Positions 1-16,566 of a stretch of 21,984 bases of DNA are shown in pieces (the stretch's first letter is position 1; every line of letters starts with the position of its first letter). Below the pieces are notes generated by a model. That model was not told where the DNA came from and did not search any database. It worked only from the letters and a program-made list of their open reading frames with translations. The DNA is from a virus. The DNA lies in the IMG/VR virus record IMGVR_UViG_3300021963_000732, positions 1 to 21,984 of that record. The stretch is one strand, 5' to 3'. The position numbers were made by a program, and so were the translations under genes.

Positions 1-2211
1 AGACATTTATCTAAATTAATTCCTGTAAAGGTTAGAAATTTTACTATTGGTAAATCATGGGATGGTTTTAATGACGAACCCCACAACGGAGAACCCTACA
101 TAGATGATTTAGATAAAACATTACTATACGAACAAACACTCAAAAATCAGTATAGTAAATTAGAAGACCATAAATTGTATTCTAACTATTCTAACGAGTT
201 TGAACATAATATCAATATAGTTTTAGAAGAAACAGATCATCACTATTACTATTCGTCTTATAAAGGTCCTAAAATTGCTTATAATGTTTGGGAGTCAACT
301 CTACAACCTGAACATTTTTTTAATAAGTTAAAAGAATACGATCAAATCTGGGTGCCCTCAAAATGGCAAGCCGAGTGTACTATTGCTCAAGGTATGCCCG
401 TTGATAAAGTAAAAGTTGTACCTGAAGGAGTAGATGTTAACACCTTCTCCCCAGAACTCACTAAAAATGTTCCTGAATATTATGGTGATGGTCGTTTTAA
501 ATTTGTTGTATTTGGAAGATGGGAATATAGAAAATCTACTAAAGAGATTATTGAAACATTCCTTAAAGAATTTAAACCAGAAGAACCCGTTGATTTGATA
601 ATTTCAGTTGATAACTCATTCTCAGGAGATGGTTTAGAAACAACCGAAAATCGTTTAAAACACTATGGTTTAGAGGATTCACGTATTAAAATAGTTCATT
701 TTCCTTCTCGAAAAGATTATATTGATTATTTAAAAAACGGTCACGTGTTTTTATCTTGTGCTCGTAGTGAAGGTTGGAATTTACCTTTAATTGAGGCTAT
801 GGCTTGTGGTACCCCCTCTATTTATTCAGCTTGTTCTGGTCAAATGGAATTTGCTGAAGGTAAAGGATTACCTGTAAAAACATGGGGCGAATTACCAGCT
901 AAAGATCCTGATTATAAAGGAAGATTATTAGTAGGTTCTTATTATGAACCAGATTACGAAGATCTAGCTAAAGTAATGAGAGATGCTTATGTTAATTATA
1001 AAGAGCATAAAGAAAAAGCAATTAAAGATGCTAAAATTATTCACGAAAACTTTAATTGGGATAAAATAGCTGAAATAGGGAAAAATACCCTTCAAGAATT
1101 TATTGATAATTACGAAGAACCAGAAGATAAAAATACTATCCATATCAATTATATAGGTAAACCTAAAGTAGAAATTTTAGGAAATCTTAATAAATCTTAT
1201 TTTGTAGAATTTGTAGATTCTTCAACTGGTAAAGTTTACCACTCAGAAACTATCAACAATAATATGTGGGTAGAATGTGGTATACAATACTATGTTCCTT
1301 GGTCTATTAGAGTAGATGGTAAAGAAGTAAGTAAATTAAATTTAACTAATCAAAGAGTATTAATCTCTTTAGAATCTAAAGCAATTGGTGATACTATTGG
1401 TTGGTCTCCTTACGCAGTTGAATTTGCTAAAAAACATAATTGTAAAGTTGTATTATCTACATTCCATAATGATTGGTTTGAAGATTTAGAAACCTATAAA
1501 AATGTAGAATTTATAAACCCCGGCACTAATACAGAATGTGCAGCACATTATAAAATAGGCTGGTTTAGAGATAAAGACGGAGGATGGAAAAACCCAAGTT
1601 GTCATCCACGTCAATGTAATACTATTCCTATGCAAGCTACCGCTACCGATATTTTAGGGTTAGAATTTAAAGAATTAAATTACGGGATTAACGTTTCTAA
1701 AGGTGAAAGACCTTATCAACAAAAATATGTTGTAATAGGTCCAAACGCTACAGCAGGCTGTAAAGAATGGAAATATGAATATTGGTGTTCTTTAGTTAAA
1801 TTATTAAACCAACAAGGATATTTAGTAATTAGTTTAACTCAAAATGAATTTAACATTCCTGGTACTATTAATCATTATGGACATCCTATTAGTAATGTAG
1901 TTAATTATCTATATCACGCTGATTTATTTATAGGTTTAGGCTCAGGTTTATCGTGGCTAAACTGGTCTATTGGAAAACATACAGCAATGATAAATGGTTT
2001 TGCAGAAAAAAATCACGAATTTACTACTCGTGTTACGCGTATAATGACCGATAATTGTTTTCCATGTTGGACAAATCCTAATTTTGCATTTGATGCTGGT
2101 GATTGGGATTGGTGTCCTATTTGGAAAGGAACAGATAAACAACACATTTGTCAAAAATCAATTACTCCACAATTAGTAATGTCTAAAATTAAACCTTTAC
2201 TAAAAAAATAA
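1..2211 (+). CDS. Two-domain glycosyltransferase (GT4-like + autotransporter heptosyltransferase-like), 5' partial
   Basis: The reading frame is open from base 1, so the gene starts outside the window; 736 residues are visible. The first half is a GT4/GT-B retaining glycosyltransferase: a segment with VPSKW and VPEGVD (near 350-440), then FGRWEYRKS (near 510-540) and the E-x7-E nucleotide-sugar motif in SEGWNLPLIEA (glutamates at 769 and 793). The second half (about 1140-2205) resembles the bacterial autotransporter O-heptosyltransferase family (BAHT/TibC type, GT9-like): AIGDTIGWSPYAVEFAKKH, GPNATAGCKEW, GLGSGLSWLNW, then a cysteine finger C-x2-C-x15-C-x11-C starting at 2056 and ending in an ITPQ segment. 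Known BAHT enzymes add heptose to serines of adhesins and bind iron through four such cysteines. Here the acceptor is unknown; a virion surface protein or a host surface protein are both possible. The TTG at 175 is only the first start-like codon, not the true start. Confidence 0.85.
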   Translation, partial: RHLSKLIPVKVRNFTIGKSWDGFNDEPHNGEPYIDDLDKTLLYEQTLKNQYSKLEDHKLYSNYSNEFEHNINIVLEETDHHYYYSSYKGPKIAYNVWESTLQPEHFFNKLKEYDQIWVPSKWQAECTIAQGMPVDKVKVVPEGVDVNTFSPELTKNVPEYYGDGRFKFVVFGRWEYRKSTKEIIETFLKEFKPEEPVDLIISVDNSFSGDGLETTENRLKHYGLEDSRIKIVHFPSRKDYIDYLKNGHVFLSCARSEGWNLPLIEAMACGTPSIYSACSGQMEFAEGKGLPVKTWGELPAKDPDYKGRLLVGSYYEPDYEDLAKVMRDAYVNYKEHKEKAIKDAKIIHENFNWDKIAEIGKNTLQEFIDNYEEPEDKNTIHINYIGKPKVEILGNLNKSYFVEFVDSSTGKVYHSETINNNMWVECGIQYYVPWSIRVDGKEVSKLNLTNQRVLISLESKAIGDTIGWSPYAVEFAKKHNCKVVLSTFHNDWFEDLETYKNVEFINPGTNTECAAHYKIGWFRDKDGGWKNPSCHPRQCNTIPMQATATDILGLEFKELNYGINVSKGERPYQQKYVVIGPNATAGCKEWKYEYWCSLVKLLNQQGYLVISLTQNEFNIPGTINHYGHPISNVVNYLYHADLFIGLGSGLSWLNWSIGKHTAMINGFAEKNHEFTTRVTRIMTDNCFPCWTNPNFAFDAGDWDWCPIWKGTDKQHICQKSITPQLVMSKIKPLLKK

Positions 2212-2555: not shown

Positions 2556-4259
2556 ATGGCAGAAACTTTAATTTCACCTGGAGTATTAGCTAGAGAAAAT
2601 GACCAGTCGTTTATCACGCAGCAACCTGTAACTGTAGGTGCCGCCATCATTGGTCCTACTGTAAAAGGTCCTGTAGAGATCCCAACTGTAGTTACTACAT
2701 ACTCAGATTACTTAAGTAAATTTGGTGGCACTTTCCTAAGTGGTGGTCAAGAATACAGCTATTTTACTTCAATTGCTGCTTACAACTATTTCCAACAAGG
2801 TGGTGAAACCCTTTTAGTAGCTAGAGTAGCTTCAGGATCATGGTCCCCAGCTTCTGCCTCTATAGCAGCTATTAACACTTCAGCTTCTTTTGTATTAAAA
2901 ACTTTCTCTGAAGGCGTTATAATGAACAGTTCAAGTTCATTAGGTACTAATGGCATTTTAGCAAGCGGTTCAGCTGATAACGTTAGATGGCAGATTACAG
3001 GAGTAGACACAGGTTCAGGTCAGTTTAGCTTATTAATTAGACAAGGTAATGATACAGCTACTGAACCTATTGTTCTTGAAACATGGTCGGGCTTATCATT
3101 AGACCCAACTCAAGATAACTTTATTGCTAGAGTAATTGGTGATAGCTACCAACAATACAACTCAGCTGAAAATTATATTGAAACAATTGGTAACTATCCT
3201 AATAATTCAAGATATGTTTATGTATCTTCAGTAGTTAACCCAACTCCATACTTCTTTGATAACAACGGTACAGCTAAACCTGCGTTCCAACCTTATATCC
3301 CAGCAGCTACTAGTGGTGCTTTTGCAGGAGCTTTAGGTGATTTGTTCTATGGAGCCGGTGCTTTATATTATTCTCAATCACAAGGTACTACCAACATTCA
3401 AGGTATTAATGCTACGGATTATGATGATATGATTTCATTAATATCTAACCAAGATGATTATAGATTTAATGTAATTTCAGTTCCAGGTTTAACATTGCAA
3501 GATAATGCTTCTCAAACAACTACTTTAGTAAATGCTGTTCAATCTAGAGGTGATGCTATTGCTGTAGTTGATCCTAGCCCATATGCTTCTGCAATCTCTC
3601 AAGTAATTACAGATGCTTCAGCTGTAAACAGTTCATATGCTGCTGCTTACTGGCCTTGGTTACAAACTATTGATCCAGGTACTGGTCAATTAGTATGGGT
3701 GCCAGCCTCTACTATGATTCCGGCAGTATACGCGTTTACTGACAGTGTAAGTGAGCCTTGGTTCGCTCCGGCGGGTATTAACAGAGGTGGTTTAGATACC
3801 GTAGTAAGAGCAGAAAGAAAACTTTCACAAACTAATCGTAACAATTTATATGTAGGTAATGTAAACCCAATTGCTACATTCCCAGGAACTGGAGTTGTAG
3901 TATATGGTCAGAAAACTCTACAGAAAAAATCATCTGCACTTGATCGTGTAAATGTTAGAAGATTGTTAATCGCCCTTAAGTCTTACATTTCTCAAGTAGC
4001 TAATAACTTAGTGTTTGAACAAAACACAATCGCTACTAGAAACCAATTCTTAAGCCAAGTTAACCCATACCTAGAATCAGTTCAACAACGTCAAGGTTTA
4101 TACGCGTTTAGAGTAATCATGGATGATTCCAATAACACTCCAGACGTAATCGATAGAAACCAATTAATCGGTCAAATCTATCTACAACCAACTAAGACTG
4201 CTGAATTCATTTACCTAGACTTCAACATCTTACCAACTGGAGCTACTTTCCCAGCATAA
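2556..4259 (+). CDS. 18: Contractile tail sheath protein (T4 gp18-like)
   Basis: A 567-residue protein that forms the contractile outer layer of the tail. It begins with the family's typical N-terminus, ISPGVLARENDQS followed by VGAAIIGPTVKGPVEIPTVV, and ends with the conserved sheath C-terminal domain: segments LLIALKSYISQVANNLVFEQN, GLYAFRVIMDDSNNTPDVID and IYLQPTKTAEFIYLDFNI. The middle region is the variable surface part. The length is a little below that of T4 gp18 (about 660 residues), with the difference in the middle. The tail tube gene follows 46 bases downstream, the standard gp18-gp19 order. Arginine codons are 16 AGA and 3 CGT. The start ATG is preceded by an A-rich leader and a candidate late motif. 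Confidence 0.95.
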   Translation: MAETLISPGVLARENDQSFITQQPVTVGAAIIGPTVKGPVEIPTVVTTYSDYLSKFGGTFLSGGQEYSYFTSIAAYNYFQQGGETLLVARVASGSWSPASASIAAINTSASFVLKTFSEGVIMNSSSSLGTNGILASGSADNVRWQITGVDTGSGQFSLLIRQGNDTATEPIVLETWSGLSLDPTQDNFIARVIGDSYQQYNSAENYIETIGNYPNNSRYVYVSSVVNPTPYFFDNNGTAKPAFQPYIPAATSGAFAGALGDLFYGAGALYYSQSQGTTNIQGINATDYDDMISLISNQDDYRFNVISVPGLTLQDNASQTTTLVNAVQSRGDAIAVVDPSPYASAISQVITDASAVNSSYAAAYWPWLQTIDPGTGQLVWVPASTMIPAVYAFTDSVSEPWFAPAGINRGGLDTVVRAERKLSQTNRNNLYVGNVNPIATFPGTGVVVYGQKTLQKKSSALDRVNVRRLLIALKSYISQVANNLVFEQNTIATRNQFLSQVNPYLESVQQRQGLYAFRVIMDDSNNTPDVIDRNQLIGQIYLQPTKTAEFIYLDFNILPTGATFPA

Positions 4260-4305: not shown

Positions 4306-4794
4306 ATGGCAGTATTAGACCCAAACGAAATATTTTTCACAGCGTTTGAACCAAAACAGGCGAACCGCTTTATCATGTACGTAGATGGTATTCCATCTTA
4401 CACAATCAAAGCAATTTCAGCTGTTACTTTCGAACAAGGTGAAGTAGTACTTAACCACATTAACGTGTACAGAAAGGTTAAGGGTAAAACCACTTGGTCA
4501 GATTTAACAATGACGTTATTTGATCCAATCACACCTTCTGGAGCACAAGCTGTAATGGAATGGGTACGTTTACACCACGAATCAGTAACAGGTAGAGATG
4601 GTTATTCAGACTTTTATAAAAAAGATTTAACTATCGATGTTTTAGGTCCTGTAGGTGATATCGTTTCTGAATGGGTAATCAAAGGAGCATTTATTAAGGG
4701 TGGTAACTTTGGTGAATACAACTGGGATACAGAAAATACTGCTATCAGCCTATCACTAACACTTGGTATGGATTATTGTGTATTAAACTTTTAA
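4306..4794 (+). CDS. 19: Tail tube protein (T4 gp19-like)
   Basis: A 162-residue protein, essentially the same length as T4 gp19 (163 residues), which polymerises into the inner tail tube through which DNA passes. Family features visible: RFIMYVDGIPSYTIKAIS near the N-terminus, INVYRKVKGKTTWSDLTMTLFDP in the middle, VMEWVRLHHES, and the C-terminal GAFIKGGNFGEYNWDTENTA / SLSLTLGMDYCVLNF strands. It follows the sheath gene directly and precedes a strong terminator. The codons are more balanced than those of the glycosyltransferase, in line with a highly expressed structural gene. Confidence 0.95.
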   Translation: MAVLDPNEIFFTAFEPKQANRFIMYVDGIPSYTIKAISAVTFEQGEVVLNHINVYRKVKGKTTWSDLTMTLFDPITPSGAQAVMEWVRLHHESVTGRDGYSDFYKKDLTIDVLGPVGDIVSEWVIKGAFIKGGNFGEYNWDTENTAISLSLTLGMDYCVLNF

Positions 4795-5283: not shown

Positions 5284-6009
5284 ATGAGCGAATTTAAAAT
5301 CCCAACAGAAATAGTTGAGTTACCTTCAAAAGGTCTATTATACCCAGAAGGAAATCCTTTAGCAGAAGGAAAGGTAGAAATGAAATACATGACTGCTAAA
5401 GAAGAAGATATTCTTACAAACCAAGCCTACATCAAACAAGGTGTTGTATTGGATAAACTATTACAATCTCTTATTGTAACTAAAATTAATTACGATGATT
5501 TAATTATAGGTGATAAAAATGCACTTATGGTTGCTGCTCGTATTTTAGGTTATGGTAAAGACTACGATTTTGTTTATGATGATGAATCTTACGTAGTTGA
5601 TTTATCTACTATTGATAATAAACCTTTTGATGAATCCTTAGTTACTAAAGGAGTAAACGAATTTGCTTTTACCCTCCCTAATTCAGGGGTTGATGTAACA
5701 TTTAAAATCCTAACCTCAGCTGATGATAAAAAAATTGATGCTGAATTAGCTGGTTTAAAGAAAATTAACAAAGATTCTTCACCTGAATTATCAACTCGTT
5801 TAAAATATATTCTTACTTCAGTTGATAGTAATAGAGAAGCTAAAACTATTCGTGAGTTTGTAGACAATAATCTACTAGCCCGTGATTCAAGAGCACTAAG
5901 AGAATATATCCGTCAGGTTCAACCAGATGTTAATTTAACATTTACTACAAATAGCGGTGAGGAGGTCGCTATACCTGTAAATCTTAGCTTTTTTTGGCCT
6001 GACGCCTGA
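5284..6009 (+). CDS. 26: Baseplate hub/tail assembly protein (T4 gp26-like, T4_baseplate family)
   Basis: A 241-residue protein of the T4 gp26-type family (Pfam T4_baseplate, PF12322; assigned from memory of the family pattern). Signature parts: VELPSKGLLYPEGNPL at the N-terminus, VEMKYMTAKEEDILTN, then IKQGVVLDKLLQSLIV and VAARILGYGKDYDF. T4 gp26 (208 residues) is needed for baseplate hub assembly and is regarded as a tail-assembly chaperone rather than a virion part. The gene lies two places upstream of the tape measure gene, where tail-assembly chaperones sit in many phages. Its last codons run through a seven-T stretch (5989-5995) before the sequence WPDA and a TGA stop, and the next gene's frame is open across this point (see the frameshift entry). 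Confidence 0.85.
   Translation: MSEFKIPTEIVELPSKGLLYPEGNPLAEGKVEMKYMTAKEEDILTNQAYIKQGVVLDKLLQSLIVTKINYDDLIIGDKNALMVAARILGYGKDYDFVYDDESYVVDLSTIDNKPFDESLVTKGVNEFAFTLPNSGVDVTFKILTSADDKKIDAELAGLKKINKDSSPELSTRLKYILTSVDSNREAKTIREFVDNNLLARDSRALREYIRQVQPDVNLTFTTNSGEEVAIPVNLSFFWPDA
5989..5995 (+). promoter_or_regulatory. Probable programmed frameshift site (seven T) joining gp26-like and the 86-residue ORF
   Basis: The run TTTTTTT is read as TTT TTT TGG in the gp26 frame, five codons before the TGA at 6007. The downstream ORF is in the +1 (equivalently -2) frame, open from 5981 (its last stop, TAA, is at 5978-5980) through 6286. A Phe-tRNA slip of +1 on the T run would join the two into a product of about 334 residues passing through FFGLTPEVAPQVRMNLF. 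Frameshifted tail-assembly chaperones just upstream of the tape measure gene are well established in lambda (G/GT), P2 (E/E') and Mu. Confidence 0.65.
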
Positions 6010-6028
6010 GGTAGCTCCCCAAGTTAGA

Positions 6029-6289
6029 ATGAATTTATTTACCCAAATCCATGAAATAGTATTTCATGGTAAGGGTGGTTATGACTGGGAAACAGTCTAT
6101 TCTATGCCCATATGGCTAAGGAAATTTACTTTCTTTAAAATACAAGAATTTTATAGTGAAGAATCTAAAGCAATGGAACAAGCTAACCAAGGTTCTAACA
6201 AAACAACAGCTGTAGATTCCTCAGGTAAAGTAAATACTCCGGCGTTTGCTGGTGCATCTAAACCATATAGTAAAATAAGTTATAAGTAA
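6029..6289 (+). CDS. Tail-assembly chaperone extension (gp51-/E'-like by position), probably reached by frameshift
   Basis: An 86-residue ORF from its first ATG; the frame is already open from 5981. The N-terminal half carries IHEIVFHGKGGYDWETVYSMP and LRKFTFFKIQEFYSEES, a compact helical, Trp/Tyr-rich segment. The rest is a Ser/Thr/Asn-rich tail. It starts 19 bases after the gp26-like stop and ends 27 bases before the tape measure gene. In T4, gene 51 follows gene 26, and in many phages the second chaperone is made only as a frameshift fusion. I infer that role from position and frame; I do not recognise the sequence with certainty. Independent initiation at 6029 is also possible. Confidence 0.65.
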   Translation: MNLFTQIHEIVFHGKGGYDWETVYSMPIWLRKFTFFKIQEFYSEESKAMEQANQGSNKTTAVDSSGKVNTPAFAGASKPYSKISYK

Positions 6290-6291
6290 TA

Positions 6292-6301
6292 ATATTTATA
6301 A
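6292..6301 (+). promoter_or_regulatory. Candidate late-promoter motif ATATTTATAA (copy 5, before tape measure gene)
   Basis: ATATTTATAA lies 15 bases before the tape measure ATG, directly after the stop of the preceding ORF. Confidence 0.5.
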
Positions 6302-6316
6302 CAAATATTCATTTGA

Positions 6317-8968
6317 ATGGCTAACGAATTAGAGAATTATCAAAAACGCATTGAGGCTGCCTTAAAGCTTGAAAAACTTGATAAAGACAGAAAAAGACGT
6401 CTTCAAGAAGAATATGAAGCTTTAAGAAAGAATAATGCTACCGTTGAAGAATTTAGAGCCTTATCCGAAGATATCAATACTATTATTGATAATATTTCAA
6501 ATAATTTAGATTATGTATCTAAATCGTTTGCAGATTCTGTATCTGAACTTACAAAAGGTAAAAGTCTACTTAACGCCCAAAAATCAGCCCTAGAAAAACT
6601 ATCAGGTATTGCTCGTGAAACCTTAAGTATTAGAAGAGGAGATAGTGATTTAGATGATAAAAAATTTAAAAGATTACAAGAACAAGCACGTCGTCAAACC
6701 GATATTTTAAGGACTACTCGAGATCAATTAGCTACTCAAGGAAAATCTACAGCAGAAATTGAACAACAAATAGCAGACACTCAGCTTCTTCAAGATGGAT
6801 TTAATGCTATTTTAAAAGTAAACGAAGAAGTTGAAAAAAAGTTAGGTTTTATTCCCCAATTAGCTGAAGGTATTGATAAAGCTTTATCTAAAATAGGATT
6901 ACCTTCATTAGGATTTGCTGAAGCTGTAGCTGAAACCAAACGATTAGCACAAGAAGCAGATGCTGCCGGAATTAAGTTTAATGCTGCTAGTACTTATGTG
7001 GGTTTATTAAAAACTAACCTATTAGAAGCCCTTACCCCAGCTAACTTAATTCAATCAGCTGTGCTAGGAATAGTAGATGCCTTATTTGCTTTAGATGAAT
7101 CTACAGGAAAATTAGCTAAAAACTTTGGCATTTCCTATGCTGAAGCTACAGGAATCTCAGATGAACTAAACTCAGCAGCTAATAATGCGTATTTACTAAA
7201 TGTTACTACCCAGGGTTTAGTAGATTCTTTTGTTACTTTAAATAATGAATTTGGTACATTTGGACAGATTAGCGAGGAATCCTTAGTAACCTTTCAAAGA
7301 TTAACTAAAGAAGCAGGATTATCTAATGAGGCCGCTATTGGCTTATATAAAACTAGTATTTTAACTGGTAGAGAATTAGAAGATAATACTAAAGCATTCT
7401 TAGGTGAAGCCAAAGCAATCTCAGATGCTAATGGGTTAGCTTTAAATCAAAAACAAATTTTAGAAGAAGCTAAAAATATTTCTTCTGCTACTTTACTTAC
7501 TTTAGGAGGTCAACCTGAAGCAATAGCTAAAGCTGTAGTAAAAGCCAAAGCATTAGGTGTTACTCTACAACAAGTAGAACAAATATCATCTAGTTTACTT
7601 GATTTTGAAAATTCTATTTCTTCAGAATTAGAAGCTGAATTATTAACAGGTAAAAATCTTAATTTAGAAAAAGCTAGATTAGCAGCATTAAACGGAGAGA
7701 TAGCTACAGTTGCTGAAGAAATTGCTAAACAAACTGGCAAAGCAGCAGACTTTACTGAAATGAATGTTTTTAAACAAGAAGCATTAGCTAAAGCTGTTGG
7801 AATGACACGTGAAGATTTAGCTAAATCTTTAATAGAAAGAGAAGCATTAGCTAAAATCGGAGCAAAAGACTCAGAAGAAGCTAAAAAAAGATTTGATCTT
7901 TTAGTTAAACGATATGGTTATGAAGAAGCAACTAAAAGATTAGGTGATGAACAATATGCTCAACAACTTAGATCTCAATCAGTCCAAGAAAGATTCACAG
8001 CTTCTATAGAAAAATTAAAAGAAGTATTTGTTTCTATAGCCGAACCTTTACTTCCTATATTAGATATATTTGGTAAAATAGCCGAAGCTGTAGCTCCTTT
8101 AGCAGGATTTATAGGACAAATTGTTAAATATACTATAGAGCTTGGTAAATATTTACTCCCAGTATATGCCGTATATAAAGGAATTTTATTAATTCAACAA
8201 AGAGGATTACTTCAAGCCCAAGCCGCAGCTGCTCTTAATAAGTTAGGTTTAATTACTGATAAACAAAAACTATTTTATCAATCCAGATTAACATATTTTG
8301 AAAATGTTAAAAAAGGGACAGCTGAAAAGAATTTAATTCTAGAAAATGCTAGTATAGTAAATTCCCTAAAAAAGAATACATTAGCTGCTATAGCAGTAGT
8401 TCATGAAAGAATGGCTAATGTGCAAAAAAATATAGGCTTAGCTTTTGAAAATGCTGTACTAGCTGTAAAACAAAGAGGTATATTAGCTACTATAAAAGAT
8501 TTAGCAATGCAAGGACTCCTTAAAGCTAAAAAACTAGGAAGTATGTTAGTTGATGTTGGTTCTTTAGCACTTAGTGCTGCTAAAGCCGTTGCAGGTATTC
8601 CTATTATAGGTCCAGTTTTAATGGCAGGTGCTCTTGCAGGAGCCACAGCTTTAGGTATAGGAGTTTACAATCGTTTTAAAGGAGATGATGTTGTTTCCCC
8701 CGGATATGGTAAACGTACTTTGTTAGCTCCTGAGGGTGCTATTGATTTAAACGATAAAGACACGGTAATAGCCGGTACTAACTTAGGAGGTAAAAACCAA
8801 TCAGCAAATACCTCATCATCACCTTCAATTAATTTATCTCCGTTAGTTGAACGTATGGTCGCTGTAGAAAACTTACTAGGACAAATCCTAAGCAAAGAAG
8901 GCACAGTATATCTTGATGGTAATAAAGTAGGTACAGCTATGGCTATGGGCACTTATAAAACTCAATAA
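6317..8968 (+). CDS. Tail tape measure protein
   Basis: An 883-residue protein. It is assigned as the tape measure protein, which sets tail length and is ejected into the cell, by position (right after the assembly chaperones), size and composition. Residues about 1-190 are charged and alpha-helical with long coiled-coil stretches (KLEKLDKDRKRRLQEEYEAL; RRQTDILRTTRDQLATQGKS). The middle is rich in Ala, Glu, Lys and Leu. The last third holds hydrophobic segments, notably VGSLALSAAKAVAGIPIIGP followed by an Ala/Gly-rich stretch (about 750-790). The final 90 residues look like a separate small domain (LAPEGAIDLNDKDTVIAGTN) seen at the end of phage tape measure proteins. T4's equivalent, gp29, has 590 residues, so a tail longer than T4's is expected (inference). 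No peptidase motif was seen. Confidence 0.85.
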   Translation: MANELENYQKRIEAALKLEKLDKDRKRRLQEEYEALRKNNATVEEFRALSEDINTIIDNISNNLDYVSKSFADSVSELTKGKSLLNAQKSALEKLSGIARETLSIRRGDSDLDDKKFKRLQEQARRQTDILRTTRDQLATQGKSTAEIEQQIADTQLLQDGFNAILKVNEEVEKKLGFIPQLAEGIDKALSKIGLPSLGFAEAVAETKRLAQEADAAGIKFNAASTYVGLLKTNLLEALTPANLIQSAVLGIVDALFALDESTGKLAKNFGISYAEATGISDELNSAANNAYLLNVTTQGLVDSFVTLNNEFGTFGQISEESLVTFQRLTKEAGLSNEAAIGLYKTSILTGRELEDNTKAFLGEAKAISDANGLALNQKQILEEAKNISSATLLTLGGQPEAIAKAVVKAKALGVTLQQVEQISSSLLDFENSISSELEAELLTGKNLNLEKARLAALNGEIATVAEEIAKQTGKAADFTEMNVFKQEALAKAVGMTREDLAKSLIEREALAKIGAKDSEEAKKRFDLLVKRYGYEEATKRLGDEQYAQQLRSQSVQERFTASIEKLKEVFVSIAEPLLPILDIFGKIAEAVAPLAGFIGQIVKYTIELGKYLLPVYAVYKGILLIQQRGLLQAQAAAALNKLGLITDKQKLFYQSRLTYFENVKKGTAEKNLILENASIVNSLKKNTLAAIAVVHERMANVQKNIGLAFENAVLAVKQRGILATIKDLAMQGLLKAKKLGSMLVDVGSLALSAAKAVAGIPIIGPVLMAGALAGATALGIGVYNRFKGDDVVSPGYGKRTLLAPEGAIDLNDKDTVIAGTNLGGKNQSANTSSSPSINLSPLVERMVAVENLLGQILSKEGTVYLDGNKVGTAMAMGTYKTQ

Positions 8969-9284: not shown

Positions 9285-11387
9285 ATGCCTTTAGTAGAAT
9301 TAGTAACCGACTTAAAAAGCCTCAAGTACGGTAAGGATACCCCTGGAGGCGGATATAGTGGTCAACCCTATATCCAGGCTAAGATTCCAGTTGGTTTAGA
9401 ACCAAAATCTCCTGACTTTATTTTAAGGGGAGGTTACCTAACCGTAGGAGATTCTTTAACAGATATCAAAAGACTAACTAAAATGTTTTTTGATTTAAAG
9501 TCTCCTAACGGATTATTTTTTATTGCTAAACAAAACGTTTTATCTAACTCAGCCGCTCGTACTCAAACTAGTGGTATAATGAATGAAGGCATTTATACTC
9601 CATTAAATACATTAGCTGAGGCTGGTGTTATAGCTTTTGGAGGTCATTTAAATAAACAAGGGATTAATCCATTTGAACAAACCGGAGCTTATGCTGTAGG
9701 GGATGGGTTATATAATTCTGTTGTAAAACCTTCTCAACCACTTGCAGAAAATAGACTAGTTAGTTTATTCGAAGCTATTGATAAAAACGAAGCAATACGT
9801 AACTGGAATTTTTCAGGAGTCAATTTAAATGTAGGTGATAATGATATTTTATCATATAGAGGTGGTCCAGGTTCTATATTAGGTGTAGGTACTACTAATA
9901 TTAGATTCGCTGATAAAAGAACTGGTAATAATAACCCTTTAAAAGTTTCTAACCCAGATTATTTTTATGGTAAAAATCAACAAAGATCTGTTAATGTTAA
10001 TAACCAACAAGTTGGTGGTTTAAAAGTAGAGCCTTTTAAATCTTGGACTTGGGGAGGACCTACAATTTATACACCTAGTGGTTCTCTTAATTTAGTAAAT
10101 TTTTTACCAAGTTTTGATCTAAATAAACCACAATCTGGTAGCTTAAGTAAAATACCTAACGGACCCGAAACCTGGACTCCTAAACAAAACAATCCAGATT
10201 CTTTAAAATACTTAAAAACTATTGATAGCCCTGATAATACCGGGGTTTCAGGAAAATATACTAGATTAACAGGAGATAGATTAGTTAACAATTACAATCC
10301 TGATGGTATACCTTTTGATACTAAATTTTATAATGTATATGAACCCGCAGTTGAAGGTAATACATGGCCCAAAAATACCGATTTAATATACGCTAATAAT
10401 ACTTTTACCTATACTCAAGAAGATCTTATCCAATCTTTTCCTGACCCAGGTAAACTTAATGGTAGTCCTAAAACACAAGATTTTAGAGCGATATTAAGAA
10501 ATAAATTAGGAGGTTTTAAAAATAAAAATGGTAGAACCTCTAGTGAAGTAGGTGCTACTCCCTTATCCCCAGATTATCAAACTGAAAATATTGAAACTAG
10601 AGTTCATCTAGGAGACCCAGGAAAACGTGCTGATAAAGACTATTCAGATTACACTGCAGGTATAGCTTATCAGGGTGCTGTTAAAGCTTTAGATAAAATC
10701 ACAGCTTTACCAATTTACAGAAGTGATTCTGTAGCTGAAGATTCTGAAACTTACCCAGTAAATGATTTAGTTAAATTTAGAATAGCAGCTATTGATGGTA
10801 GTGCTCCTAATTTTAAAACATTTATTCACTTTAGGGCATTTATAGATAGCTTTAGTGATTCATATACTGCTGATTGGACATCTAACAAGTATATGGGTAG
10901 AGGGGAAGATTTTTATACTTACAATGGATTTGGTAGAACAATCTCATTATCTTTTACTGTTGCTGCCCAATCAAAGCAGGAACTTATTCCAATGTATCAA
11001 AAACTTAACTACTTAGCCTCTAACCTTACCCCAGACTATAGCCCTTCTGGCTATATGAGAGGTCCTTTAGTTCAATTAACTATGGGAGGTTATCTTTATG
11101 AGCAAGTAGGATTTATTACAGCTTTAACTTATGATGTTCCTAACGATACAACTTGGGAAATAGGTATTAATACTGAAGGTGGTAGTGATGATACTGTAAA
11201 AGAATTACCTCACAGAATAAACGTAAGTAGTTTTAACTTTACCCCAATTCATAATTTTGTACCACAAAAACAAGGTCTTACATTTGCGGATGGTAGAGGT
11301 AAAGTTACTGGATTTGGTCAACAAAGATATATCGCCTTGGATAATGGAAATAATACTAACTGGTTTCCTAAAAACCCTACCTTTTAA
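9285..11387 (+). CDS. Large tail/baseplate structural protein, probably with a tube-initiator-like domain
   Basis: A 700-residue protein. The first roughly 480 residues are rich in Asn, Gly, Ser, Thr and Pro with no motif I recognise. The C-terminal domain (roughly residues 495-680) carries FRIAAIDGSAPNFKTFIHFR, AFIDSFSDSYTADWTSNKYM, GRGEDFYTYNGFGRTISLSF, SKQELIPMYQKLNYLASNLTP and GPLVQLTMGGYLYEQVGF. This pattern occurs in baseplate proteins that start the tail tube (gp48/gp54 type, with a tail-tube-like fold). The assignment is by recalled pattern and by context between the tape measure and gp53-like genes. It starts five bases after the previous stop with an A-rich leader. Alternatively it is simply an unassigned virion structural protein. 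Confidence 0.6.
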   Translation: MPLVELVTDLKSLKYGKDTPGGGYSGQPYIQAKIPVGLEPKSPDFILRGGYLTVGDSLTDIKRLTKMFFDLKSPNGLFFIAKQNVLSNSAARTQTSGIMNEGIYTPLNTLAEAGVIAFGGHLNKQGINPFEQTGAYAVGDGLYNSVVKPSQPLAENRLVSLFEAIDKNEAIRNWNFSGVNLNVGDNDILSYRGGPGSILGVGTTNIRFADKRTGNNNPLKVSNPDYFYGKNQQRSVNVNNQQVGGLKVEPFKSWTWGGPTIYTPSGSLNLVNFLPSFDLNKPQSGSLSKIPNGPETWTPKQNNPDSLKYLKTIDSPDNTGVSGKYTRLTGDRLVNNYNPDGIPFDTKFYNVYEPAVEGNTWPKNTDLIYANNTFTYTQEDLIQSFPDPGKLNGSPKTQDFRAILRNKLGGFKNKNGRTSSEVGATPLSPDYQTENIETRVHLGDPGKRADKDYSDYTAGIAYQGAVKALDKITALPIYRSDSVAEDSETYPVNDLVKFRIAAIDGSAPNFKTFIHFRAFIDSFSDSYTADWTSNKYMGRGEDFYTYNGFGRTISLSFTVAAQSKQELIPMYQKLNYLASNLTPDYSPSGYMRGPLVQLTMGGYLYEQVGFITALTYDVPNDTTWEIGINTEGGSDDTVKELPHRINVSSFNFTPIHNFVPQKQGLTFADGRGKVTGFGQQRYIALDNGNNTNWFPKNPTF

Positions 11388-11396
11388 TATAATTAA

Positions 11397-11705
11397 ATGA
11401 ATAGATATCAGGACATACCCATTATTAAAACTACAGATGGAAAACGAGTATATGCTACATCTCGTTATCCTGAAGCCCCTTTATCTCCTAATGATATCTA
11501 CGTGTATACTACCCAAGGAGACAGATACGATATTTTAGCTTTAAATTATTATGGTGATTCTTCTTTATGGTGGGTTATAGCAATAGCTAACCCAAATGTA
11601 GACTTAATGACACTAGTTATCCCTGAAGGAGCCCAAATCCGCATCCCTAGTAACTTTTCAGGTGTTATAAGCGAATTTAATTTAATTAATCAATTACCGT
11701 TATGA
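11397..11705 (+). CDS. 53: Baseplate wedge protein, gp53/LysM-like
   Basis: A 102-residue protein with the compact LysM-like pattern of the T4 gp53 family: VYATSRYPEAPLSPNDIYVY, then TQGDRYDILALNYYGDSSLW, WVIAIANPNVDLMTLVIPEG and AQIRIPSN. In T4, gp53 has a LysM-like fold and clamps wedges together in the baseplate; LysM-type 'tail protein X' is its counterpart elsewhere. T4 gp53 is longer (196 residues), so this is a minimal version. It starts nine bases after the preceding stop, and its TGA stop overlaps the start of the hub gene by four bases (ATGA), indicating translational coupling. Confidence 0.8.
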   Translation: MNRYQDIPIIKTTDGKRVYATSRYPEAPLSPNDIYVYTTQGDRYDILALNYYGDSSLWWVIAIANPNVDLMTLVIPEGAQIRIPSNFSGVISEFNLINQLPL

Positions 11706-14638
11706 ACATAGTAGGTGAGGGTATTAACAAAACAATATCTGAACAAATTAAAGTTAGACAAGAAAAATATGGTTTAGGTCTTACTAGTAATAGAGATATT
11801 GAAACTATAGAATTCTTTAACTCTAGAACAGCATTTGTTAAATTAATTTCTTCAGTAAATATTGTAACTGACTTTAATCCTAAAAGCGAAGAATTAAAAC
11901 AAATTCTTAGCCAAATAGGTGATAATAAATTAGCTACTGAATTTGTTTTATTTAATGGTACTTCTACAATAAATCCTGAAACCAATGCTATTACCCAACG
12001 TTCAGGAATAGCTAGAACTAACTCAGTTATAAACAATGATGCTTATGGTTTGGGTGGTCTTGAATTTGGTTTAAGACCTATGCCCGGTATTATTTCTATG
12101 GAAACTAAAACTGAAAACAGAGGCTCATTAAGAACTTCTACAGTTAGAGTTAAAGCATGGAACCGTGTTCAATTTGAAATTCTTGATATCCTTTACTTAC
12201 GTTTAGGATATAGTGTTCTATTAGAATTTGGAAATATACTCTATTTCCAAAACGATGGAACTTTAATAAAAAATCGCCCTTGGACTTTACAAAGTGGATT
12301 TTTAAAAGGAAGTTATGATGTTGATACTTTACAAGAAGCTATATCAGATCTTAGAATAAAATCTAATGGAAATTATGATGCTGTATTTGGTAAAGTAACT
12401 AACTATAGTTGGTCTTTTGAAACTGATGGTTCTTACGACATTACTATAACTATAAAAAGTATAGGTGATGTTATTGAATCTTTAAAATTAAATACCTTAA
12501 TTGAAGATAAAAGCACAGAAGAAGATGAAGAAGAAGAAGCTACTACTGAAGAACCAACAATTGAATCTTTTAAAGATAAACACCAAATAGGTAGGTTATT
12601 TTATAATGCTAAAAAAGCTTTAAGTAAAAATCCTCAATTTAAAAAAGGGTGTAGAGGTTTAGAAACTGATTTATTAAAAGATATTACTTTTGAAAAAACA
12701 GGAATTAAACATTTTCTTCAACAAAACTATAATGGAACCGAACCCCAGTACTATATTAGATTAGGTTCTTTATTAGCTTTTATTCAAGAAAAAGTATATC
12801 CTAAATACACTAAAGGAGCTGATACTAGAATCCCACTTTTAAAATACGACTATAAAATTGAGGGTAACTTAATTTATACTGTTCTTAACCAGATTAGTAT
12901 GGACCCTAGAGTGTGTTTAATAAATACTTCTGTAACTGCTACTGATGGCACTTATGTATTCGCTCCTGAAGGAGAAGAATATGTTACTACTATAAGTAAT
13001 ATAAAAATAGGTCAAATTATGAATATATACGTTAATATGTTATATATTCTTAAAACACTTGATGCTAATCTAACCCCAGATAACTCTTCTACTACCATTG
13101 ATTTTTTAAATTCAATGTTATCTGATGTAAGTAAAGCTTTAGGTTCTATTAATACTTTAGAAGCCTTTAGAGATGAAGATACTAATACAGTAAAAGTAAT
13201 AGATCAATCTACTATTCCTGGTAAGTATGAGTTAATGAAAGAATTACAAAGGGTTACTCCTGAAGAAATTAACCCTATTAATCTATATGGATATGTTAAT
13301 GGTGGAAGTAACTTTGTTAGAAATTTTGGGATTAAAACCGAAATTACTCCTAATTTAGCTACTACTATAGCTATTGGAGCCCAAGCTGCAGGTACTGTAG
13401 TAGGAGAAGATTCTACAGCTTTATCTAAATTAAACTTAGGATTAGAAGATAGAATTAAAAATACTATAGAGGATGCCGTTACTGAAACCACTGAAGAAAA
13501 ATCTAAAGAAGAAGAATTAAACGATCGTTTCCCTAATGCTAACAAAAACTTTTCAGAAGCTGTTTTTGAATTAGGTGTTAAATCTTCAAGCAATTCTGTT
13601 CCTACTTTTAATGAAGAATCTATAGATTCATATTCACAAGTTCAAGCTACTTTTTTATCGTATGTTAATGCTAAAACCGCATTAAAATCTAAAAAAGCAT
13701 CATCTACTATAGGATTCCTCCCAGTTAATTTAAATTTAACATTAGATGGAATTTCTGGTTTAAAAATATACAATGCTTTAAATGTAGATACTAGATTTTT
13801 ACCTTCTAACTATCCTGAAACTATGGATTTTATTATAGTAGGATTAAGTCATAAAGTAGAAAATAATGACTGGACTACTAGCATTGAAACTAATATGGTT
13901 CCTAAAGATCCAAGCCAAGGAGAGGGCAATTCACCTAGTAGTAAAGCTAACCCTAATCAATCAGGAAATCAATCAAGCAATTCTGGCAATTCTGGAGGTA
14001 GATCGGGAGGTAGTTCTCCAAATGTAGCTTATTTCCAATCTAATGTTCCTGAAGCTGAAGCTAAACTTAGAGCTAGATTAACTCGTATTTTAGATGATGG
14101 AACTCAAACTTTAGGATTATTAACTATATTAGCTGAAGACGGAGTAACTGAATTATATACTGTAGCTACTGTAGAACTCCCATTTAAAAATAATGAAAAT
14201 GGAGCCAGTTGTGTTCCTACTGGAACCTATTTAGTAAACAGTAGACAAAACGTTAAATACGGTAAACATTTCTGGTTAGTAGGCTCGGCGGCCGGAAACT
14301 GGAAGAGAATCCCTGGCAATAATAATTCTGATAGAACTTGGGTATTAATCCATAAAGCCCCTAAAGCCCCTGGATGGTTACAAGGTTGTATAGGTCCTGG
14401 CCCTAAATTTAACTTTAAAAATAAAAACGCTCAAGGAAATCCTAATGGTATAGGATCAGCATATTTAGACCCAGCTGAAAGCGAATCCCAAAAAACTTTA
14501 GGCAGAATAGTAAATACTTTATTCAATACAGGTGGTTTTAAAATGACTATAGTAAACGGAAGAACTAATTTACCTACTAGTATAGATGATCCTGGGTTAG
14601 CAAATCTTAAAGAAAAATATCCTAAAATATTCTCTTAA
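11702..14638 (+). CDS. Baseplate hub protein (gp27-like) fused to a DUF5675 cell-wall-type domain
   Basis: A 978-residue protein in three parts. Residues about 1-735 look like a large baseplate hub: GLEFGLRPMPGIISMETKTE, RGSLRTSTVRVKAWNRVQFE, ILYLRLGYSVLLEFG, FGKVTNYSWSFETDGSYDI and a C-terminal FIIVGLSHKVENNDWTTSIE. It is interrupted near 12520-12565 by an acidic low-complexity stretch. A Ser/Gly/Asn-rich linker (about 13912-14020) follows. The C-terminal part (about 14065-14570) matches DUF5675: ARLTRILDDGTQTLG, ELPFKNNENGASCVPTGTY, KYGKHFWLVG, then LIH (His884) and QGCIGPG (Cys896). The conserved His and Cys recall the H...GC arrangement of L,D-transpeptidase-like enzymes, but the activity of DUF5675 is not firmly known. 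In T4 the hub gp27 carries the separate lysozyme gp5; here the wall-acting part appears fused to the hub. The start overlaps the gp53-like gene by four bases. Confidence 0.8.
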   Translation: MNIVGEGINKTISEQIKVRQEKYGLGLTSNRDIETIEFFNSRTAFVKLISSVNIVTDFNPKSEELKQILSQIGDNKLATEFVLFNGTSTINPETNAITQRSGIARTNSVINNDAYGLGGLEFGLRPMPGIISMETKTENRGSLRTSTVRVKAWNRVQFEILDILYLRLGYSVLLEFGNILYFQNDGTLIKNRPWTLQSGFLKGSYDVDTLQEAISDLRIKSNGNYDAVFGKVTNYSWSFETDGSYDITITIKSIGDVIESLKLNTLIEDKSTEEDEEEEATTEEPTIESFKDKHQIGRLFYNAKKALSKNPQFKKGCRGLETDLLKDITFEKTGIKHFLQQNYNGTEPQYYIRLGSLLAFIQEKVYPKYTKGADTRIPLLKYDYKIEGNLIYTVLNQISMDPRVCLINTSVTATDGTYVFAPEGEEYVTTISNIKIGQIMNIYVNMLYILKTLDANLTPDNSSTTIDFLNSMLSDVSKALGSINTLEAFRDEDTNTVKVIDQSTIPGKYELMKELQRVTPEEINPINLYGYVNGGSNFVRNFGIKTEITPNLATTIAIGAQAAGTVVGEDSTALSKLNLGLEDRIKNTIEDAVTETTEEKSKEEELNDRFPNANKNFSEAVFELGVKSSSNSVPTFNEESIDSYSQVQATFLSYVNAKTALKSKKASSTIGFLPVNLNLTLDGISGLKIYNALNVDTRFLPSNYPETMDFIIVGLSHKVENNDWTTSIETNMVPKDPSQGEGNSPSSKANPNQSGNQSSNSGNSGGRSGGSSPNVAYFQSNVPEAEAKLRARLTRILDDGTQTLGLLTILAEDGVTELYTVATVELPFKNNENGASCVPTGTYLVNSRQNVKYGKHFWLVGSAAGNWKRIPGNNNSDRTWVLIHKAPKAPGWLQGCIGPGPKFNFKNKNAQGNPNGIGSAYLDPAESESQKTLGRIVNTLFNTGGFKMTIVNGRTNLPTSIDDPGLANLKEKYPKIFS

Positions 14639-15285: not shown

Positions 15286-15298
15286 AAATGTACTTAAG
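15268..15298 (+). promoter_or_regulatory. Inverted repeat over the junction of structural and replication genes
   Basis: A perfect 9-bp inverted repeat, CTTAAGTAC (15268-15276) and GTACTTAAG (15290-15298), with a 13-base loop that contains the stop codon of the upstream gene. Its last base is the G of the GTG start codon of the polymerase gene. There is no T run, so it is not a standard terminator; it could fold over the polymerase start and lower its translation, or bind a protein as DNA. Confidence 0.5.
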
Positions 15299-16566
15299 TG
15301 TTTTGGTTAATAGAAAATAAGAGTCAATTAGACGAGTTTTGTCACAAGGGTTTTAAAGAAGCATTTGTGGAGATAATCCCATACTCTCCCTTCATACACC
15401 CAACTCAAAACTCGATTTGTGCTATTTACGTTCGTCCTACCCGAGATGTAAAAGGATATATGCTTCCTATTTTTCATACCGAGGTACAAGAAAATCTATT
15501 TGAAGATCAAGTTTACCGCTTACTTAAGGGATTAGATAAAATTTACTGCCGAGACAAAAAGGAATTTCTACACTATTTTCCTTTTAAGCAGCTTATTGAC
15601 ATTACCCTAACCTCCCCTACGTATATACAACCTACCCAAGCACACGAGTTTATATACAAGAAATACTCTAGCAGACCGGATGTAAACATACTTGTTCCTA
15701 TTGTTAAACATTATGAGTATTGCGAATCTATTTTTGAGGAGCTAGAGCATCTAATAGGACAACCTGTTAACGAGTTTTATAACCACAAAGCAAGTTGGAT
15801 GTTCTATGCCATTGAACAAACGGGACTTACCGTTGATATACCGCTTTATGAGCAATACTTTGAGCAGGACACGGAGGGTGTAGTTTATACTCAATACAAT
15901 TTTAAAACGCTTACTTCACGCCCGTCAAACAACTTTAATGGAATAAACTATGCAGCACTTAATAAAGAGAATGGGTGTAGGAAAGCTTTTATCGCGCGTA
16001 ATTCTTCGCTTGTTGAGTTCGACATTAGCGCTTACCATCCTACTTTATTGGCTAAGTTGGTTGGTTATGATTTTGGTAATGAGGACATTTATAGTCACTT
16101 TGCAGATGTTTATAAGTTGGATAGAAAAGATGCGAAAATCTTAACTTTACAACAGCTATATGGAGGAATTTTACCAAAATATCAAGAGCTTGAATTCTTT
16201 GGTAAAGTAAAAACCTATGTAGAAAATTTATGGGATGAATTTCAACATCAGGGTTTTATTGAATGTCCTATATCCGGCTTTAAATTTTATAGAGATAAGC
16301 TGGAAAACATGAACCCACAAAAACTTTTGAATTATTTGATTCAAAACTTGGAAACCTCATACAATGTTAATATATTGTGGGAAGTATTTAAGATAATAAA
16401 AAATAAAAAAACAAAATTAGTACTATATACTTATGATTCGTTTTTGTTTGATTGGAGCGACGATGAGCGCGAGGTTTTAACAGACATTCAAAAAGTATTT
16501 AAGAAATACAAACTTAATATAAAAGTTGCACATGGAATCAGTTATGACTTTAGACCTACCGTATGA
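15298..16566 (+). CDS. Family A DNA polymerase, short and without a functional-looking 3'-5' exonuclease site
   Basis: A 422-residue protein. The polymerase region starts with TLTSRPSNNFNGINYAALNK and GCRKAFIA, equivalent to the TGRLSS...PNLQNIP...IRQAF stretch of Pol I. Motif A is FDISAYHP (Asp242). Motif B is R276-x3-K280-x3-L284-x3-Y288-G289, matching Klenow R754/K758/F762/Y766/G767 spacing, with Leu at the 762 position. Motif C is YDS (Asp380) instead of HDE. Both catalytic aspartates are therefore present. Residues 1-110 look like a degenerate 3'-5' exonuclease fold (FVEIIP where DTET is expected; CRDKKEFLHYF for the exo II region). The first in-frame start is GTG at 15298, directly after an in-frame stop; the protein then begins FWLIENKSQLDEF, as such exonuclease domains do. 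T4 itself uses a family B polymerase (gp43). It is the presumed replicative polymerase here, with gp32-, gp41- and UvsX-like partners downstream. Confidence 0.85.
   Translation: MFWLIENKSQLDEFCHKGFKEAFVEIIPYSPFIHPTQNSICAIYVRPTRDVKGYMLPIFHTEVQENLFEDQVYRLLKGLDKIYCRDKKEFLHYFPFKQLIDITLTSPTYIQPTQAHEFIYKKYSSRPDVNILVPIVKHYEYCESIFEELEHLIGQPVNEFYNHKASWMFYAIEQTGLTVDIPLYEQYFEQDTEGVVYTQYNFKTLTSRPSNNFNGINYAALNKENGCRKAFIARNSSLVEFDISAYHPTLLAKLVGYDFGNEDIYSHFADVYKLDRKDAKILTLQQLYGGILPKYQELEFFGKVKTYVENLWDEFQHQGFIECPISGFKFYRDKLENMNPQKLLNYLIQNLETSYNVNILWEVFKIIKNKKTKLVLYTYDSFLFDWSDDEREVLTDIQKVFKKYKLNIKVAHGISYDFRPTV

Follow-up and report, generated by a model that had tools for sequence, protein, structure and literature searches.

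The DNA analysed here (the window) is a stretch of 21,984 bases that makes up a single viral record, probably a fragment, and it opens inside a gene for a two-domain glycosyltransferase. The contig end cuts off the 5' end of this gene, so that 736 codons are present and, judged from the longer 5' ends of its relatives, about 25 are missing; the proteins of the relatives begin M-K-P-K-V-F-A-H-G-P-Y-I-G. The features of the gene and its downstream neighbours are as follows.

1-2211, + strand: fusion glycosyltransferase gene (GT4 plus TibC-like), 5' end missing
1-1113, + strand: GT4 domain (GT-B fold, retaining type), residues 1-371
769-795, + strand: E257-x7-E265 motif of GT4
1132-2208, + strand: TibC-like domain, residues 378-736, made up of an N-terminal beta-barrel part, a catalytic GT-B part and an iron finger
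1390-1392, + strand: D464, the counterpart of the catalytic base Asp110 of TibC
1750-1764, + strand: T584 and K588, the counterparts of the phosphate-binding Thr226 and Lys230
1897-1899, + strand: V633, aligned with Arg286 of TibC (adenine N1 contact)
1954-1956, + strand: W652, the counterpart of the sugar-binding Trp305
2056-2151, + strand: four-cysteine metal finger (C686, C689, C705 and C717)
2225-2473, + strand: conserved 82-aa ORF that separates the fusion gene from the sheath gene, its cluster found in 82 loci
2556-4259, + strand: tail sheath gene (PF04984/PF17482, phrog_23), a constant downstream landmark
4306-4794, + strand: tail tube gene, the second constant landmark, its cluster found in 75 loci

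The T4-like tail-gene setting proposed in a preliminary description of this DNA is confirmed. The nearest isolate by sheath protein was the Flavobacterium phage Immutovirus (54% identity), in which the gene at the place of the tube ORF is annotated as tail tube and the TibC-like domain is absent. Farther downstream, at 15298-16566, is a gene for a family-A DNA polymerase-like protein of just 422 aa; Immutovirus encodes one of similar length together with a second, longer one.

The N-terminal half of the fusion protein belongs to GT4 by Pfam match, motif and fold. Residues 164-285 matched the Pfam GT4 family (PF00534; E value, 1.3e-12, above the gathering threshold), the half also matched phrog_2170 (E value, 2.7e-28), and the E257-x7-E265 motif was invariant in 32 of 32 phage proteins. 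The model of residues 1-371 had a GT-B fold and matched the retaining GT4 enzymes 3oy2 (the best match; Z, 26.3), MshA and HepE. GT4 glycosyltransferases of Streptomyces and other phages (phrog_2170) have a homologous domain but, unlike the fusion enzyme, are without a TibC-like half.

Profile, fold and catalytic residues mark the C-terminal half as closely related to the TibC family. Residues 399-731 matched the NCBIfam family of TibC/Aah O-heptosyltransferases (TIGR04414) with 214 bits (E value, 3e-63; curated cutoff, 200 bits), eight of eight related records also exceeded this cutoff, and a phmmer comparison with TibC itself gave an E value of 8e-34. A merely generic GT9 likeness was rejected, given 18 bits for heptosyltransferase I. 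In the AlphaFold2 model (mean pLDDT, 82.7), residues 378-736 superposed on residues 22-390 of TibC (4rb4) with a Z score of 35.7 and an rmsd of 2.0 Å over 344 aligned residues (Foldseek E value, 9e-27), and both the beta-barrel and the GT-B core were present; confidence was low for the loop 583-587 and the finger part 698-703, and a pTM of 0.55 makes the relative placement of the two halves unsure. The preliminary description had read the gene as a GT4 domain joined to a TibC-like domain with an intact C-x2-C-x15-C-x11-C finger, and the family matches, the E-x7-E motif, the model of both halves and the exact spacing of the cysteines bear it out.

The active-site residues are those named for TibC (PMC4358343); the phmmer alignment was used to transfer their numbering, and 32 phage proteins were then checked at these positions. 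D464, T584, K588 and W652 were invariant in this set, as was the finger C686-x2-C689-x15-C705-x11-C717, the cysteines of which correspond one to one in the alignment to Cys339, Cys342, Cys358 and Cys370 of TibC and are predicted to hold a metal. In TibC, Arg286 contacts adenine N1, and its alanine mutant lost or largely lost activity (PMC4358343). This position was occupied by V, I, S, T or L in 32 of 32 phage members and, elsewhere, by I in Microcystis phage Mel-JY01, T in L112 and L in L121, whereas the arginine was kept in three bacterial members (Paraburkholderia, Acetobacter and Pandoraea). The residues that form the dodecamer/thumb contacts of TibC also differed, with Phe265 replaced by T, V, A, N or I, Val266 by I, L or T, and Phe368 mostly by H. 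On their conserved residues, the phage proteins look like active glycosyltransferases, and their nucleotide preference and assembly may differ from those of TibC. Because Arg286 is lost and the dodecamer contacts are mostly not kept, the family name "heptosyltransferase" should not be taken as an activity.

The replacement of Arg286 in all phage members also means that the donor need not be ADP-heptose, and it points to another sugar rather than to heptose supplied by the host; the TibC-like half may work with a different donor or may have acquired a different function. A full ADP-heptose pathway was not found: gmhA was absent from the 20 records searched and HldE-type nucleotidyltransferases occurred in three, below the cutoff. 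One relative (G005; L109:2108-3936) has genes for an HldE-like adenylyltransferase, a cupin and an HldE-kinase-like protein just before its ssb gene, a possible partial ADP-heptose route.

A scan of IMG/VR yielded 104 viral stretches encoding relatives, and the phages that carry the fusion enzyme are a family of aquatic T4-like phages. The loci kept, together with the window and Mel-JY01, formed 39 clusters at 90% identity, and the fusion was complete in most of them, which excludes chance; most of the contigs are partial. Among named phages, the TibC-like half was found in four records only, namely, Mel-JY01, two versions of a 735-kb phage, and a 636-kb phage. The Mel-JY01 protein (1226 aa) is annotated as "methyltransferase FkbM" and has both the GT4 and the TibC-like domains. 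An origin as a bacterial host gene was rejected: of 395 genomes from the phylum to which G023 (a metagenome-assembled genome named Bacteroidetes) belongs, only one exceeded the TIGR04414 cutoff, and a gene for a Ser/Thr-rich Gly-X-Y fibre lies on the contig responsible. The full-length fusions that occur in genome assemblies were located on contigs of metagenome bins, one of them with phage sheath and tube genes. A metagenome bin contig (L116) has two fusion-like genes (5551-8358, 935 aa; 9707-12481, 924 aa) and a Ser/Thr-rich Gly-X-Y fibre gene. Two loci, L068 (8190-9074) and L059, have a further TibC-like ORF, partial and about 294 aa long, located directly after the fusion gene and overlapping it by 4 nt.

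As the window is cut off upstream, its neighbourhood on that side was inferred from relatives that are 72 to 95% identical. The order of genes was conserved: fibre genes, optional modification genes, the fusion gene, the 82-aa ORF (in most loci), the sheath gene and the tube gene. Nearly all loci that extended far enough in the upstream direction had ORFs for Gly-X-Y fibres there. When a neighbouring 249-aa transferase was used as a second query, 34 new loci were retrieved, some of them longer cuts of contigs already counted, and the fusion gene was present in 34 of 34 with the order unchanged. Genes for fibres of the Ser/Thr type (see below) stop 66 to 67 nt upstream of the fusion gene; in other layouts, a glycosyltransferase gene ends 1 to 3 nt before it or an FkbM-like gene overlaps it by 4 nt. 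This spacing is operon-like, and the enzyme gene lies within the late structural operon, as part of a larger cassette for fibre modification that is truncated in the window. No paper describing this cassette was found in the literature searched.

The number of Gly-X-Y triplets in the upstream fibre proteins ranges from tens to 716. These proteins match Pfam Collagen (PF01391) and PHROG tail fibre families, and several end in Peptidase_S74 (PF13884), a fibre chaperone domain. By these features the relatives have collagen-like tail fibres, the genes for which would lie outside the cut window. No strand-loop-strand autotransporter was found as an adjacent acceptor, the neighbours being the Gly-X-Y fibres, whereas a bacterial family member adjoins an AIDA-repeat protein, its likely acceptor. 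With neither the adenine-contacting arginine nor an autotransporter partner, the enzyme is not filed as an autotransporter heptosyltransferase. The phage lineage is related to the TibC family but has a new architecture and probably a new acceptor, a Gly-X-Y fibre rather than an autotransporter-like protein.

Two types of fibre were distinguished. Fibres of the Ser/Thr type consist mostly of GSS and GTS, with proline at no more than 8% and usually near 0 and with Ser and Thr making up 62 to 99% of the X and Y positions; one has 1274 Ser/Thr in its 716 triplets, and proline-free Gly-Ser/Thr fibres reach 621 uninterrupted triplets. Fibres of the proline type have GPI/GPQ-like triplets, with proline in 26 to 47% of X and Y, mostly in X. 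Two layouts recur accordingly, proline-free (GSS/GTS)n fibres accompanied by the fusion enzyme alone and proline-rich fibres accompanied by an inserted 2OG oxygenase, a GT4-GT25-oxygenase fusion and GT-A transferases. The inserted oxygenase (203 aa) is of the 2OG-Fe(II) type (PF13640). The second fusion enzyme matches Pfam GT4 and GT25 and the oxygenase family phrog_61; its GT4 half and that of the TibC-like fusion gave no significant match to each other in pairwise BLAST. The GT-A transferases, judged by fold, are 250-aa proteins, one to four in number, and their structural matches, all tied, included blood-group GT6 enzymes and human COLGALT1, a collagen galactosyltransferase (Z, 11.5). Genes for an FkbM methyltransferase, a carbamoyltransferase, a UDP-galactopyranose mutase or a GT2 enzyme are sometimes inserted as well.

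After dereplication, 20 genomes had a fibre that could be read and clearly typed. The 2OG-Fe(II) oxygenase gene was present in 11 of the 11 that have proline-type fibres, against 0 of the 9 in which all fibres are of the Ser/Thr type; L018 was assigned to the proline type by visual inspection of an interrupted repeat, and L097 and L099 (about 8 to 9% proline, oxygenase present) were left out of the count. The raw Fisher P value of 6e-6 ignores relatedness and should not be taken by itself. On the fusion-protein tree, where the window falls in the proline-type clade, the fibre/oxygenase state changes three times, with at least two of the changes forced by well-supported branches, and an independent-pairs test had too few pairs for significance; the link is consistent but rests on no more than two to three independent switches. 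The oxygenases may hydroxylate proline, although their family is broad and the proline of the fibres is mostly in X. The animal prolyl-4-hydroxylase acts on proline before Gly, that is, in Y. Three proline-type genomes with long upstream sequences (L095, L096 and L106) also carry Ser/Thr-type fibres, which makes the Ser/Thr fibre the more constant companion of the fusion enzyme.

The same pairing was found in phages unrelated to this phage family, since both Mel-JY01 and the 735-kb phage LR756501 have a TibC-like domain and Ser/Thr-rich Gly-X-Y fibres. The fibre gene of the isolate Mel-JY01 (L082:2-3052; PP395634, 1-3052) is mostly unannotated, with antisense hypothetical genes recorded in its place. 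LR756501 (L194, 110-135 kb) has several giant Ser/Thr-rich Gly-X-Y ORFs, of up to 2373 aa from stop to stop, far from its TibC-like gene, and a nucleotide search with the repeat matched just the two versions of this phage. Against the pairing, no Gly-X-Y run was found within 9 kb of the TibC-like gene in the 636-kb phage LR756504. In its favour, Immutovirus, which has no TibC-like domain, had no such run of 15 or more triplets in the 80 of its 160 kb examined, tail region included.

Together, these observations suggest that the phage probably decorates its own collagen-like fibres with sugars. We consider Ser/Thr of the Gly-X-Y fibres the likely site of O-glycosylation by the fusion enzyme, whose GT4 half would extend the glycan or add a second sugar. 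The TibC-like half would place a sugar on Ser/Thr of the tail fibres before or during trimerisation, and the GT4 half would then lengthen it or contribute a sugar of a second kind. In phages with proline-rich fibres, the 2OG-Fe(II) oxygenase, the GT4-GT25-2OG fusion and the GT-A transferases would add hydroxylation and sugars of the collagen type. Long, proline-poor fibres may gain stability, stiffness or shielding from the glycans. If the (GSS/GTS)n repeats are assumed to form a triple helix, stabilisation of proline-free helices by sugars is an attractive, hypothetical reason for the modification.

The preliminary description had left the target as either a virion protein or a host surface protein, and the operon of the relatives, running from collagen-like fibre genes to the sheath gene, favours the virion. 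The main rival is that the infecting phage modifies the surface of its host (lipopolysaccharide, the capsule or a protein of the outer membrane), for instance as a barrier to superinfection. Lipopolysaccharide is a common target of GT4 and GT9-type domains, and a survey of pelagimyophages read glycosyltransferases in the tail-fibre hypervariable region in this way (PMC7029224); however, the fusion gene lies in a late structural operon, a few nucleotides from its neighbours, the TibC family modifies proteins (PMC4358343), and a host-surface role would not predict the match between oxygenase genes and fibre proline content. We therefore regard this explanation as unlikely. Glycosylation of the sheath, tube or capsid instead of the fibres appears less probable again: the genes constantly found downstream are those for sheath and tube, and capsid and tail-tube glycosylation is known from mycobacteriophages (as cited in PMC12619734), but Immutovirus has sheath and tube genes without a TibC-like domain, and it is the Ser/Thr-rich fibre that co-occurs with the enzyme across unrelated phages. 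Phage DNA, a common target of phage glycosyltransferases, is a very improbable substrate, since DNA-glucosyltransferase families were unmatched in the family searches, the family of the second half is protein specific, and the gene is in a late structural location.

Fibre glycosylation by the fusion enzyme has partial parallels in known systems. TibC and AAH (the BAHT family, TIGR04414; PDB 4RAP/4RB4) share with the phage half the whole-domain fold including the beta-barrel part, the residues Asp110, Thr226, Lys230 and Trp305, the four-cysteine iron finger, and an acceptor gene nearby that encodes a repetitive, Ser-rich protein (for the phage, the putative acceptor). In contrast, the phage enzyme is fused to GT4, has V, I, S, T or L for Arg286 and mostly changed residues for Phe265 and Phe368, and is phage-borne, with a Gly-X-Y fibre as its neighbour in place of the autotransporter of bacteria. 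In the mimivirus collagen hydroxylation and glycosylation system and in the glycosylation of Bacillus BclA (PMC8968730), a virus or microbe likewise modifies a collagen-like protein of its own with a hydroxylase and glycosyltransferases, but the enzymes differ, and here a tailed phage with a TibC-like transferase would be involved. The same review describes phage collagens only as stretches of about 18 residues (PMC8968730). Mycobacteriophage virion proteins also carry glycans (Freeman et al. 2023, as cited in PMC12619734); in that account they are the capsid and tail tube, whereas here they would be collagen-like fibres modified by a TibC-like enzyme.

More tentatively, and with somewhat less than even confidence, we propose that these phages encode a complete maturation line for collagen-like fibres (hydroxylase, GT25-type and GT-A transferases, and the GT4-TibC fusion), that this line hyperglycosylates each chain at hundreds to more than a thousand Ser/Thr, that the TibC-like enzyme has moved from ADP-heptose to another nucleotide sugar, and that its sugars, in place of hydroxyproline, stabilise proline-free triple helices. 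Such glycosylation offers a testable reason for the stability of proline-free Gly-Ser/Thr fibres. If fibre glycosylation holds true, the TibC family would extend from bacterial adhesins to phage tail fibres and gain a new kind of acceptor, the collagen-like repeat. Phages would then modify the fibres with which they contact their hosts, which would bear on adsorption and virion shielding and also on the production of modified collagen-like proteins in bacteria.
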